The translations under genes and the position numbers were made by a program. Shown here one piece after another: positions 28,879-39,227 of a stretch of DNA of 64,000 nucleotides (within the stretch, counting starts at the first letter, position 1; each line of letters starts with the position of its first letter). The notes below the pieces were generated by a model. It had not been told where the DNA came from and did not search any database. It saw only the letters and a program-made list of their open reading frames with translations. This DNA is from Mesorhizobium sp. 65-26 (GTDB lineage Bacteria > Pseudomonadota > Alphaproteobacteria > Rhizobiales > Rhizobiaceae), in assembly GCA_001899205.1 (NCBI GenBank), contig MKVL01000038.1, forward strand, positions 63,938 through 127,937. The letters are read 5' to 3'.

Positions 28879-28953
28879 GGGCGTGTAGCTCAGCGGGAGA
28901 GCACTACGTTGACATCGTAGGGGTCACAAGTTCGATCCTTGTCACGCCCACCA
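28879..28953 (+). tRNA. tRNA-Val (GAC)
   Basis: 75-nt cloverleaf with encoded CCA. Acceptor GGGCGUG pairs with CACGCCC, the D-arm contains AGCUCAGCGGGAGAGC, the anticodon stem is CUACG/CGUAG around UUGACAU, so the anticodon is GAC, and the T-arm is ACAAG-UUCGAUC-CUUGU. The 3' half from the anticodon loop on was probably contributed by the integrated element, because the displaced copy at 39180 has a different T-stem. Confidence 0.96.
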
Positions 28954-30203
28954 TCCGACCTCTTGGTTTGCAAGGCTTTGCGCACGTTGCGCTTTGTCCG
29001 CCTGTCACTGCTTACCGCCACGCTTGCGCGCAACTTGCGCGCAGAAAGCGGGCGGGATGTGTGTTTCTGAAGGCCTTCAATCACCTTCTCTGTGGCGATT
29101 CGGCACTCCCGGAGGAAATCCGGATCGAACGCCTCATAGAAATTTGCAGTGCGCTGGTCGACATGGCCAAGCCATTCGTCGCGCTGCTCGGCCGTCACGC
29201 GCGGCCGGCGGATCGCCTTCACCTGCGTCGCCATGAAGTGGCGAATCGTTCCCTGGGTGAACCGGTCGAGACCGCAGGCCACGGCGTGCCGCTTGAAACT
29301 CTTCTTGATGACGCCGATTGCCTGTCCGTCCCACGCAAGCGGCGAATCCATGTTCCAGTGCTTCAGCCAGGCGGCCAGGTTGTCGGTCAGAGGAATGCGC
29401 GGGCGGAACTTCTTGTTCTGGCGCCGGCCGGGCGGGTTGAGGTCGAGCAGCTTCTTGGTGAAGTCGACTTGGGCATCGACGCGCAGGTCGACGATCGCCT
29501 CGGGCCTCGCCCAGGTATTGAGCGCCATGATCACGAAGCGGAAGAGGTTCTCTTTCCGCGCATCGATCGCATCTATGAACCGGCCGAATTCCTCGAGGCT
29601 CGGCGTCCACTCTCTGGCCCGCGGCTCTGGCAGGCCCAAATACTTGGCGACGGCCGAAGCCTGGTTGACGACGTCCGGCGCGCTGTCCAGCAGCTGCACC
29701 TCCCGCTCGTTGCCCAACCCGTCAAGGACGACCGTCAGGCGCTTCGAGAAGCGGAAGGCGGAAGAGACCACCGACAGGTTCCGCGCGATCGTTGACGGGC
29801 TGTGGCCGAATTCCTCACGGCACCATTTCATATAGGCGCGCTGCTGCACCGGCCCGAAGGTCGAGACGGTTGCTCCGGGAACGCTCTTGGCGACCAGAAA
29901 CTCGGTCATGATACCGATCGCGCGCTTAGCCGGCGCCGAGGACGGCTTGGCCTTCACGTCGTTCTCGTAATAGTGGTCGCAGACGGCCAGGATCATCACG
30001 CTGTCCGGCGATCGGCTCCCGGAGGCGCTTGCCGATCCGACGAGTTCGATAAGCCGGTCTTGGGCGTCGGCGAGAACTTCCGTACCAAGTGAGCGGCGTG
30101 CTTCGCGTCGTCGCTTGCCGTCGTACCAGCAGGCGTAAAGCATGGTGGAGTTGCCGAGGCGCCGAATCCAGTATCCCCGATATTCCCAGAGGCGTTCGGA
30201 CAT
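28890..30203 (-). CDS. Tyrosine recombinase (integrase)
   Basis: 437 aa. It has an N-terminal arm-binding part, a SAM-like core-binding domain (about 75-170: SPSTIARNLSVVSSAFRFSKR) and a catalytic domain (about 190-400). Catalytic residues visible are Arg in NTWARPEAIVDLR, the His/Arg region TIRHFMATQ, the late His in LGHVDQRT and the probable nucleophile Tyr in ANFYEAFDPD. The last ~20 residues (DRTCDPYDVNVVLSR) are encoded antisense to the tRNA, so the current stop codon lies in host DNA. After excision the frame would continue differently. The lone GC-rich att-proximal position is normal for such elements. Confidence 0.92.
   Translation of the reverse strand: MSERLWEYRGYWIRRLGNSTMLYACWYDGKRRREARRSLGTEVLADAQDRLIELVGSASASGSRSPDSVMILAVCDHYYENDVKAKPSSAPAKRAIGIMTEFLVAKSVPGATVSTFGPVQQRAYMKWCREEFGHSPSTIARNLSVVSSAFRFSKRLTVVLDGLGNEREVQLLDSAPDVVNQASAVAKYLGLPEPRAREWTPSLEEFGRFIDAIDARKENLFRFVIMALNTWARPEAIVDLRVDAQVDFTKKLLDLNPPGRRQNKKFRPRIPLTDNLAAWLKHWNMDSPLAWDGQAIGVIKKSFKRHAVACGLDRFTQGTIRHFMATQVKAIRRPRVTAEQRDEWLGHVDQRTANFYEAFDPDFLRECRIATEKVIEGLQKHTSRPLSARKLRASVAVSSDRRTKRNVRKALQTKRSDGGRDKDRTCDPYDVNVVLSR
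28909..28956. repeat. attL: left attachment site in tRNA-Val
   Basis: The 48 bp from the anticodon loop to just past CCA recur at 39180-39227 in the same orientation with three mismatches. The first 20 bp (TTGACATCGTAGGGGTCACA) are identical, so crossover most likely falls here. The two copies bound a 10.3-kb block with an integrase gene at its left end. Confidence 0.88.
29023..29044. repeat. Candidate integrase arm-type sites, left end
   Basis: Two direct CTTGCGCGC units 11 bp apart (29023-29031 and 29034-29042) followed by AG, about 70 bp inside the left att. The same double unit in the same orientation lies at 39062-39083, about 100 bp inside the right att. Symmetric placement near both ends is what arm sites of a tyrosine integrase require. 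Confidence 0.55.
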
Positions 30204-30412
30204 GCGGGTTTTTCCTTTCGCTGCAGGTACGCCGCGAGGTCGTCGGGGTGGTAGAGATGCACGTTGCGCTTACCCTGTAGGAAAGCGATATCCCCCCTCT
30301 TCCGCGCCGCTCGCAATTCTGACGGACCGATGAAGAGGCCAAGCCGTTTATCGCTACAAACCTCCTTCTCGGTCATCATCTGCGAGTAGCGATCTAGCCC
30401 CTGCCTAGCCAT
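29996..30412 (-). CDS. Excisionase-like winged-HTH protein
   Basis: 138 aa. The first ~70 residues form a MerR/excisionase-like winged helix (KRLGLFIGPSELRAARKRGDIAFLQGKRNVHLYHPDDLAAYLQRK). The rest is low-complexity Ser/Thr/Ala/Pro sequence encoded in a 208-bp overlap with the integrase start in another frame, so it may be unconstrained. Overlap with the 200-aa gene upstream (8 bp) indicates one operon. Likely role: directionality factor for the integrase, or a regulator (inference). Confidence 0.65.
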   Translation of the reverse strand: MARQGLDRYSQMMTEKEVCSDKRLGLFIGPSELRAARKRGDIAFLQGKRNVHLYHPDDLAAYLQRKEKPACPNASGNIGDTGFGASATPPCFTPAGTTASDDAKHAAHLVRKFSPTPKTGLSNSSDRQAPPGADRRTA

Positions 30413-31007
30413 TCGGCTGCGCCCTAAAAATAGCGGCTATGTCGGCGATGGTCGGTCCTATGACCGACCGTGTCACATCAAGCCGACGGAAGTATCGCGA
30501 CATCCTGGCTTGGCCATCGGGAGTCTCAAAAGCGGCAGAATCATCGAAACAGACGGTCTTGCCGTTGCCCGGAAAAACTTCGATCTGCACCACCCGGGGG
30601 GTGCACCTTATCCAAGCAAGCCAACAGCGACGTTCGGCTTCGTTCGCCGGCAGAGATGCCAATTCCCGAATGAATGCGGCGAGGAAATCGACAGCCGTTG
30701 TAGGCGTCGCCGGATCCTCGACGATGGCCTCTCGTCCATCGTTAGGAAAGTGATAGCTTCCTGTCATCGGAAGCCGCGCGAAATCGTAAACGGCCTGAGG
30801 AGCCGAACTGGGCCGCTCGGTTGCCAGCAGTGCAATCACCATTCGCGCGCAATCCAGTTCGGTAAGATCTGGGGCGTTGACACCTCTGGCCCCAGTGGAC
30901 GTGATAAGCTCCGCCTCACTCAAGAACCGGTAGAAGAGGCTGATCTGCCCCTCGGGCATACCAAGTGCTCTCGCCAGTCCAGCAACCAAAGCCCCCTTCT
31001 TCGCCAT
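30405..31007 (-). CDS. Uncharacterised element protein, 200 aa
   Basis: No family recognised. The N-terminal part (KGALVAGLARALGMPEGQISLFYRFLSEAELI) looks like a DNA-binding helix pair. The middle (TELDCARMVIALLATE, TTAVDFLAAFIRELASLP) is helical, and the last third is beta-rich with conserved-looking aromatic residues (RCWLAWIRCTPRVVQIEVFPGN). ATG 31007 (MAKKGALV) is preferred; the frame extends to 31091. It overlaps the excisionase-like gene by 8 bp. A role in control of the element is a guess from context. Confidence 0.6.
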   Translation of the reverse strand: MAKKGALVAGLARALGMPEGQISLFYRFLSEAELITSTGARGVNAPDLTELDCARMVIALLATERPSSAPQAVYDFARLPMTGSYHFPNDGREAIVEDPATPTTAVDFLAAFIRELASLPANEAERRCWLAWIRCTPRVVQIEVFPGNGKTVCFDDSAAFETPDGQARMSRYFRRLDVTRSVIGPTIADIAAIFRAQPNG

Positions 31008-31197
31008 CTTGTAGTGCCCCCCGCAGCTTAAATGTGCAACGACATTTAGCAGTCGGGCGGACATCTCGCAAGTTAAAATGCTAGATCGCATTTAGACCCC
31101 AACATACCGGCAGGGGTCGGGTCTGCAAATTTGCTGACCCGCACGGTGGGGAAATTCCCCACCAGGGTGCGTTTTCCGCACCCTGGTGGTGGCGAAA

Positions 31198-31395
31198 TTA
31201 GCCAGCGCCTTCGTGCATCTCGACCGTGTCGTGAACTATGCCAAGCAGTTCGCCGGCCAGGTCCAATGCGATCGCGATGTCGCCGCCCAACTTCTTGGCG
31301 TTGTCGTGGCTGCTGAGATCACCGGCCACCCGACTGCAAAGCGAGATTATGGCCATGGCATCATAGCCGCACTGGACCACCTGAGCGGCGCTCAT
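31198..31395 (-). CDS. Small uncharacterised protein, 65 aa
   Basis: MSAAQVVQCGYDAMAIISLCSRVAGDLSSHDNAKKLGGDIAIALDLAGELLGIVHDTVEMHEGAG: helical, acidic, no signal peptide. It follows the 142-aa Tat-like gene by 19 bp on the same strand and is probably its partner. The frame extends upstream into that gene, so the start is uncertain. The 190 bp between it and the 200-aa gene holds a short palindrome-rich stretch around 31135-31185. Confidence 0.45.
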   Translation of the reverse strand: MSAAQVVQCGYDAMAIISLCSRVAGDLSSHDNAKKLGGDIAIALDLAGELLGIVHDTVEMHEGAG

Positions 31396-38841: not shown

Positions 38842-39044
38842 CGCTGCGCCTCGCGGAGAACGGCGATTGCCTGAAGCGGCGTCAGGCCGAAGCGGCGACG
38901 AAGAGCGGGAATCACCGGGTGTTCACAGGTCGCACCATGGGCGCGGTACCAGGCCGCCGCGATCTCGATTGCCGCGCTCGACTGATGGCAAAGTCCGGTG
39001 GTTCCACCAACTGGCAACGACGGCGGGAGAGGATCGGCTCTCAT
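38838..39044 (-). CDS. Small uncharacterised protein, 68 aa, coupled to the initiator
   Basis: Pro-rich N-terminus, then a helical C-terminal half (AIEIAAAWYRAHGA.., RRFGLTPLQAIAVLREAQR) that may bind DNA. Its stop overlaps the initiator-like ATG by 4 bp, so the two are translated together. It is the first gene of the minus-strand series, about 135 bp from the right att. Confidence 0.6.
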   Translation of the reverse strand: MRADPLPPSLPVGGTTGLCHQSSAAIEIAAAWYRAHGATCEHPVIPALRRRFGLTPLQAIAVLREAQR

Positions 39045-39061
39045 TCGCCCCGCTCCCCGTC

Positions 39062-39083
39062 TCTTGCGCGCCGCTTGCGCGCA
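39062..39083. repeat. Candidate integrase arm-type sites, right end
   Basis: CTTGCGCGC at 39062-39070 and 39073-39081 followed by AG; the 22-bp double unit differs from the left-end copy at 29023-29044 only in the two spacer bases. Confidence 0.55.
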
Positions 39084-39179
39084 GTGCCCCCTTCGTTCGG
39101 GGTTGGTTCAGCAGAGGTTCCGGTGTCTACCGTAGCGGAAAACGGCGGATTTCCGCGCTTTCTTGCGCTCGGGGGTTCC

Positions 39180-39227
39180 TTGACATCGTAGGGGTCACAG
39201 GTTCAATCCCTGTCACGCCCACCATCC
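39180..39227. repeat. attR: displaced 3' part of tRNA-Val
   Basis: Matches tRNA-Val from the anticodon loop through CCA and three bases beyond. Three differences fall in the T-arm: ACAGG-TTCAATC-CCTGT here against ACAAG-TTCGATC-CTTGT in the intact gene. The two stem changes compensate each other. This is a remnant, not a functional tRNA: it lacks acceptor 5' strand, D-arm and 5' anticodon stem. Confidence 0.88.

Follow-up and report, generated by a model that had tools for sequence, protein, structure and literature searches.

Does an integrated element that encodes a capsid protein and a tail spike, and in which no packaging gene is found, represent a phage satellite or the remains of a prophage? 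This question is raised by a 10,271-bp element in the Mesorhizobium-type chromosome of Mesorhizobium sp. 65-26, bounded by the 3' part of a tRNA-Val gene and a 91% copy of it. The window analyzed here, to which all coordinates refer, is a 64,000-nucleotide (nt) stretch of contig MKVL01000038.1 (C38 of the 6.84-Mb genome). The element has general features of phage satellites, namely, attachment (att) bounds, its own integrase and replication gene, and an incomplete virion set. From comparisons with loci of related genomes, named below by handles such as L247 and G292:C1, we conclude that it is probably a satellite with its own shell and spike, for which a helper siphophage would supply the remaining parts.

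Anatomy of the tRNA-Val element

The element lies between two copies of a 53-nt direct repeat. When the tRNA 3' end was slid along the element, the top distant match covered 42 of 45 nt, giving the size of 10,271 bp, and the integrase C terminus is encoded through the att/tRNA sequence (28890-28961). The named genes are all on the minus strand, in the order p68, Rep, zinc-finger/HNH-like gene, p82, capsid, spike, acyltransferase, p142, a 65-amino-acid (aa) frame, p228, helix-turn-helix (HTH) gene, and integrase. The features are as follows.

28879-28953, tRNA-Val(gac), containing most of the left att copy
28909-28961, no strand, attL, in 53-nt direct repeat with 39180-39232 (91% identity); 3' part of tRNA-Val(gac)
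28890-30203, minus, tyrosine integrase, 437 aa (phrog_1, 2.5e-20)
29996-30412, minus, 138-aa HTH protein, possible excisionase (HTH_17, E 0.0021, under the Pfam cut-off)
30405-31091, minus, p228, 228-aa protein, perhaps a regulator (51% over ~83 aa in G147)
31198-31395, minus, frame of ~65 aa; by eye, L247 has a comparable small frame after its p142-like gene
31415-31843, minus, p142, 142-aa protein with a twin-arginine-like stretch (35% in G292:C1; local matches in relatives)
32473-33042, minus, hexapeptide acyltransferase (PF00132, 2.3e-18; 86% aa identity to the prophage on contig C31)
33063-35477, minus, tail spike with C-terminal SGNH/GDSL hydrolase domain (PF13472, 1e-12; phrog_5240 tail fibre)
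35629-36846, minus, HK97-type major capsid protein, 405 aa (PF05065, 4.4e-75; phrog_10)
37089-37337, minus, p82, 82-aa protein (40% in G292:C1, where its gene likewise has zinc finger and capsid as neighbors)
37437-37874, minus, 145-aa double zinc-finger, HNH-like protein (phrog_1271, 8e-8; 49% over 89 aa in G308)
37996-38841, minus, O-like replication initiator Rep (phrog_1032, 9.4e-9; HTH_36 below cut-off)
38359-38479, no strand, four imperfect 26-nt iteron-like repeats within rep (repeat family D1), candidate origin
38838-39044, minus, p68, 68-aa protein adjoining attR, family marker (matches in relatives by profile search)
39180-39232, no strand, attR, right copy of the 53-nt direct repeat (91% identity)

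A first-pass annotation, made from the sequence without database searches, had described a tRNA-Val element with attL and attR, an integrase, an excisionase-like protein, an initiator with iterons, an HK97 capsid, and a tail spike. Each of these is borne out by the repeats and family matches above apart from the excisionase, for which the HTH frame is present and the identification is suggestive only. To that description we add the acyltransferase after the spike and the zinc-finger/HNH-like gene and p68 as parts of the element. The annotation had also pointed to full-length frames with good ribosome-binding sites. The frames are open throughout; plausible ribosome-binding sites were seen at the capsid, spike, and p82 starts, and those at other starts are less clear. 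The spike likely starts at ATG 35477, which is preceded by GGAGG.

Ten element proteins were scanned one by one against Pfam and PHROGs at E values up to 1. There was no family match to terminase (TerS families included), portal, protease, tape measure, or lysis proteins, in agreement with the annotation, and capsid and spike are the only virion genes named in the element. As controls, Pfam detects TerL in the C31 prophage, L297, L261, L257 (weakly), and L274, and gpA in L302 and L279. On the coding strand, the longest stretch outside named genes measures ~0.63 kb (31844-32472) and could not hold a terminase or portal, in line with the annotation's remark on small gaps. The small proteins that lack a name could include a redirection protein. 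Neither p228 nor p142 has a Pfam or PHROG family, and a Pfam scan of p82 gave none at E 0.01.

An empty att site was not found among relatives, since the right flank of the window lay beside tRNA-Val in 0 of 29 relative loci (1.5 kb each); the same test gave a single partial 84-nt match to this flank, 1.2 kb off tRNA-Val. With the flank adjoining the tRNA in none of these loci, the tRNA-Val site (28879-28953) may be a hot spot. The HTH frame overlaps the integrase start by ~0.2 kb. Its product matches G063 at 43% over 132 aa, and G063 has the same overlap (L101, 847-1236 and 1044-2351), with no stops in the HTH match and three in the integrase match. The integrase C terminus has short matches in a number of IMG/VR contigs.

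Small p68 elements in related genomes

At E 1e-5, a p68 profile found matches in 103 of 394 genomes from the bacterial family, spread over 58 of 109 genera. When genomes were drawn from the whole order and the threshold was set at E 1e-7, 6 of 297 matched: four, counting the source genome, belong to the window's genus and two to a single other family. The loci studied were 64 of the 69 best p68 loci, the window included (G170, G529, G080, G418, and G147:C12 were left out), and eight IMG/VR loci. Attachment repeats were tested in 42 of the 64, chosen mostly for a tRNA to the right, which was correctly oriented in 39. A repeat at the tRNA was found in 36 of the 42 loci. In 29 of these it matched at 40 to 45 of 45 bases, and in seven (L246, L248, L247, L302, L297, L279, and G292:C1) at 15 to 17 of 18; tRNAs without a true repeat reach 12 to 14 of 18 by chance, so the 15 of 18 in L248 and L279 is weak.

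The 36 att-bounded elements comprise 20 of 8.96 to 12.38 kb and 16 of 13.1 to 20.6 kb; the regions covered extend ~20 kb rightward of p68, so longer elements were missed, and this reach could not create a length peak near 10.4 kb. In 17 of the 20 small elements, from 14 genus codes, there is no terminase among the Pfam families listed. These 17 have a median length of 10,467 bp, which is unchanged when the 13 well-matched ones alone are used. Twelve fall between 10.18 and 11.03 kb despite their differing virion genes, four between 11.8 and 12.4 kb, and one (L251) at 8.96 kb. The family-wide length near 10.4 kb suggests DNA fitted to a small shell; scaling from HK97 (39.7 kb, T=7), the capacity of a T=3 shell is estimated at ~11 kb.

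Gene content was read from selected coding-like frames in three pools, A3 (76 proteins, 8 loci), A4 (75 proteins, 8 loci), and A6 (64 proteins); A3 and A4 also contain G207, L242, and L301, outside the seventeen. The Pfam families listed are the best 25 of 33 (A3), 25 of 35 (A4), and 25 of 35 (A6), the others having one member each at E above ~0.003, 0.001, and 0.0015, respectively. The pooled PHROG families listed are the best 25 of 76 and 25 of 101 and exclude nothing. Relatives carry differing subsets of capsid, protease, tape measure, spike, and NlpC-like genes. The annotation's "only capsid and spike" thus describes this copy and not its relatives, which have other subsets, often with a tape measure.

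A capsid gene is present in 14 of the 17 terminase-less small elements: by Pfam in the window, G308, L247, L246, L248, L250, L296, L298, L300, and L305; by tblastn in G292:C1, whose capsid frame crosses two stretches and is not in A3; and by PHROG major head in L249, L251, and L258. None was seen in L266, L260, and L286. A tape measure is present in 10 of the 17, by local search in L246, L247, L248, L250, L260, L266, L296, and G292:C1 and by Pfam PhageMin_Tail in L305 and L300 (L300 assigned from a count of two). The clearest case is L247, a 10.45-kb element with a tRNA-Glu repeat of 17 of 18, which has Peptidase_S78 (3e-33), Phage_capsid (2.5e-53), TMP_3 (2e-44), and an integrase. Pfam protease matches in A3 are those of L246, L247, and L248; a protease-like G207 frame is not among them. 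Pool A4 has one HK97-gp10-like and one GTA-gp10-like tail protein, and A6 has one head-tail attachment and one tail-lysozyme match. A portal occurs once among the Pfam families listed for the three pools, in L242, a locus without delimited ends. Two A4 members gave a weak PHROG portal match (~1e-5), and none appeared in the ten of the 75 proteins scanned singly. In L305 and L300 (11.8 to 11.9 kb), in which no terminase is among the Pfam families listed, protease and capsid form a fused frame and a tape-measure-like gene lies on the opposite strand.

The remaining three small elements have a terminase, of HK97-type TerL in L297 and of gpA type in L302 and L279, which also have a lambda-type portal and a protease/capsid frame. 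These elements (10.1 to 12.0 kb) resemble capsid-forming satellites. Local search also placed terminases in the p68 elements L265, L274, L282, L283, and L292. Among the 16 larger att-bounded elements, a terL gene was found by local search in 10, and no local terL match was found in G207, L262, L277, L268, L270, and L253, of which the Pfam scan covered G207. Given these terL genes and the gpA of L302 and L279, which escaped local search, p68 was ruled out as a pure satellite marker.

The ratio of nonsynonymous to synonymous substitution rates (dN/dS) could be determined in relatives and, within the window, solely in the spike N terminus and acyltransferase. The capsid and tape measure of terminase-less elements are under purifying selection. 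Capsid dN/dS was 0.073 to 0.076 among L246, L247, and L248 (dS 1.2 to 1.7, saturating), which span two genus codes and three tRNAs, and their protease frame gave 0.09 to 0.24. Between two G292 elements, dN/dS was 0.054 for the tape measure (dS 0.45), 0.089 for an NTN-like gene, and 0.20 for Rep; of nine unannotated frame pairs, four gave 1.6 to 2.65 and five 0.06 to 0.57. These two elements sit at tRNA-Ser and tRNA-Glu and share 85 to 88% DNA flanking the capsid region on both sides, and yet their capsids belong to different clades. One capsid is of the window type, with no protease seen in that element, and the other is accompanied by a protease. In G292:C1, zinc finger, p82, and capsid follow the window's order, with no terminase between them.

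Kinship, the resident prophage, and rival explanations

The capsid was used to search for kin of this copy. A relative was found in 25 of 146 genomes of the genus, its own included, and at E 1e-60 in 174 of 247 genomes of the family, the best other match being 46% in both searches. The viral_contigs and genome_contigs sets gave one locus each at 43%, and the 530 matching phage records were every one below 60%. Neither p228 nor Rep was found in viral_contigs, and there was no match to p68 in plasmids or to the zinc-finger protein in phages. Further leads from sequence searches are G308, G207, and one IMG/VR contig. On a capsid tree, which leaves out capsids of terminase-bearing small satellites, the window capsid is on a long branch whose neighbors form a group made up of phage capsids and of unclassified loci from the search of the family. 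Some of these neighbors may be capsids of gene transfer agents. Mapping the satellite label onto this tree takes at least five changes, with two satellite-rich groups.

The same genome carries a prophage on contig C31, in which Pfam identifies TerL, portal, protease, and capsid. Its small terminase and its tape measure, a long frame without a Pfam family, are guesses from position and length, and its ends were looked for and not found. The N-terminal part of the element's spike (residues 25 to 237 of the long frame) is 71% identical in amino acids to the C31 spike, and the order of spike and acyltransferase is common to both. Between element and prophage, the shared spike part has a dN/dS of 0.35 at dS 0.68, and the acyltransferase has one of 0.05 at a saturating dS of 1.5. 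This sharing indicates that a spike cassette was exchanged with a C31-like phage and is consistent with the element's spike mounting on a C31-type phage tail. Long DNA matches between the two cover spike and acyltransferase only (the next best is 17 nt, E 0.028), and the tree places the C31 capsid apart from that of the element, on a long branch whose position is unsure. The element was therefore ruled out as a deletion derivative of the C31 prophage. By eye, the prophage (L035, L036) adjoins a frame resembling a DNA methylase.

The annotation had left a choice between a new satellite type and an eroded prophage, and the terminase-less relatives, with selection where it is measurable, favor the satellite. 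If the element were eroded, a phage with a p68-rep backbone would have lost everything from terminase to protease and most tail genes, with capsid and spike intact by chance. By eye, its gene order (rep, HNH, capsid, spike, acyltransferase) is indeed like that of complete prophages; p68 also occurs in elements with a terminase, which makes decay from such elements possible; and this copy lacks close relatives; and the related integrase in G063 (58% identity) is interrupted by three stops. We nevertheless consider erosion unlikely. Relatives of similar length hold different gene subsets, dN/dS is low for capsid, protease, and tape measure in terminase-less lineages, and the window has att repeats and an open integrase frame. 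No close full-length parent was found, and the searches made gave no complete prophage with the same genes from which this copy differs by deletions, which the annotation had named among the findings that would refute its reading. Purifying selection, together with the capsid difference of the G292 elements on a common backbone, argues against prophage decay, and a standing backbone that captured capsids repeatedly is a better fit than a single decay event.

The element might instead interfere with phages, its capsid or spike, or a relative's tape measure, acting as an assembly-poisoning decoy, with vertical spread and rare transduction. A subset of virion proteins without a motor would suit this role, and purifying selection is equally compatible with it, but the integrase, Rep, and similar length fit packaging better, and the two roles are not exclusive, since satellites can interfere too; as the sole explanation, we judge interference improbable. 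A still less credible proposal, which we regard as very doubtful, is that terminase and portal are borrowed from terminase-bearing p68 elements of 10.1 to 12.0 kb, that is, from a capsid-forming satellite. Such elements exist (L297, L302, and L279), but the one TerL_nuclease match in the window genome, below the cut-off in a search of that family only, is in the C31 prophage. A gene transfer agent is a full head-tail cluster without att or integrase. The element departs from this pattern, with att sites and integrase present and capsid and spike the only virion genes named.

Besides the points that speak for decay, several observations weigh against a satellite. No sequence found exceeds 46% identity to the window capsid, and no pair is close enough for its own dN/dS to be measured; lacking a close relative, this copy is of uncertain activity. 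More than 100 residues precede the conserved Pfam domain of the capsid, yet no protease is encoded, and the tape measure seen in 10 of the 17 small terminase-less elements is missing here. The p82-containing frame and p142 of the G292 pair (dN/dS 0.57 and 0.52) are not under strong selection. The five or more changes on the tree imply that capsids were acquired repeatedly. Length is not absolute, as seen in L251 (8.96 kb), the four elements of 11.8 to 12.4 kb, and G207 (14.56 kb, no terminase among the Pfam families listed). Finally, no cos or pac site common to the element and the C31 prophage was found.

Known satellites and a possible route through a helper

The element is most readily compared with capsid-forming phage-inducible chromosomal islands (cf-PICIs), which likewise have their own capsid gene and need a helper for tails. 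The cf-PICIs encode capsid, protease, portal, connectors, large and small terminase, and HNH (PMC10690885). The window element lacks terminase, portal, and protease and carries a tail part, the spike. It is therefore outside cf-PICIs on two tested features, having no terminase and, of capsid with protease, portal, and connectors, the capsid only; the working likeness remains. MulchRoom and MiniFlayer, satellites of Streptomyces phages, have their own small capsids, as the element would if its shell is small. Unlike it, they encode a small and a large terminase together with portal, scaffold, and adapter (PMC10690885). P4-like satellites and PICIs of the Staphylococcus aureus pathogenicity island (SaPI) type are small, integrated, and self-replicating and use helper structural proteins. 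As described there, they resize the helper capsid through scaffolding proteins (PMC10690885), whereas the window element encodes its own PF05065 capsid. The satellite families named in a review include P4-like, PICI, cfPICI, PICI-like elements (PLE), phage-inducible chromosomal minimalist islands (PICMI), virion-encapsidated integrative mobile elements (VEIMEs), and tycheposons (PMC11389934). PICMIs, VEIMEs, and tycheposons are also small integrative elements, and PICMIs are described as lacking capsid-remodeling genes (PMC10803314). The titles and abstract openings available, largely outside subscription papers, describe no such Rhizobiales element.

The most likely route is as follows. The element would integrate at tRNA-Val by its own integrase and, on a helper cue, excise and replicate by its own integrase and Rep/iterons. 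Its capsid could then assemble on the helper portal and be filled by the helper terminase, and a helper tail carrying the satellite spike would be joined; in relatives, tail length might be set by the satellite tape measure. The product would be a hybrid particle with satellite shell and spike and helper portal, motor, and tail. It is plausible that the element, as first proposed, swaps the capsid and spike of its helper. A broader proposal, evenly poised in our judgment between right and wrong, is that Rhizobiaceae-type hosts harbor a class of ~10.4-kb satellites whose own contribution is confined to the determinants of virion dimensions and host choice (a shell, in some cases with its protease, a tape measure, and a spike), whereas portal, motor, and tail tube are borrowed. 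Its members would swap capsid cassettes with elements that are otherwise alike and would form chimeric virions with changed shell, tail length, or host range.

The cf-PICIs and the Streptomyces satellites bring their own packaging motor (PMC10690885). A lineage in which selection maintains a capsid but terminase and portal are absent would imply that a foreign shell can be built on a helper portal and filled by a helper motor, and that tape measure and spike are satellite cargo too. Natural variants would make shell-portal compatibility and the control of virion dimensions testable, and a widespread mobile element would be added to those of plant-associated bacteria.

By position only, candidates for a role in DNA recognition by the helper motor would be the zinc-finger protein and the small protein encoded next to it on the capsid side. 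A small protein, HTH-like by eye, is encoded directly before the capsid gene in L203 (13295-13648), L242 (2449-2787), and L258 (16593-16853) and is a possible packaging redirector.

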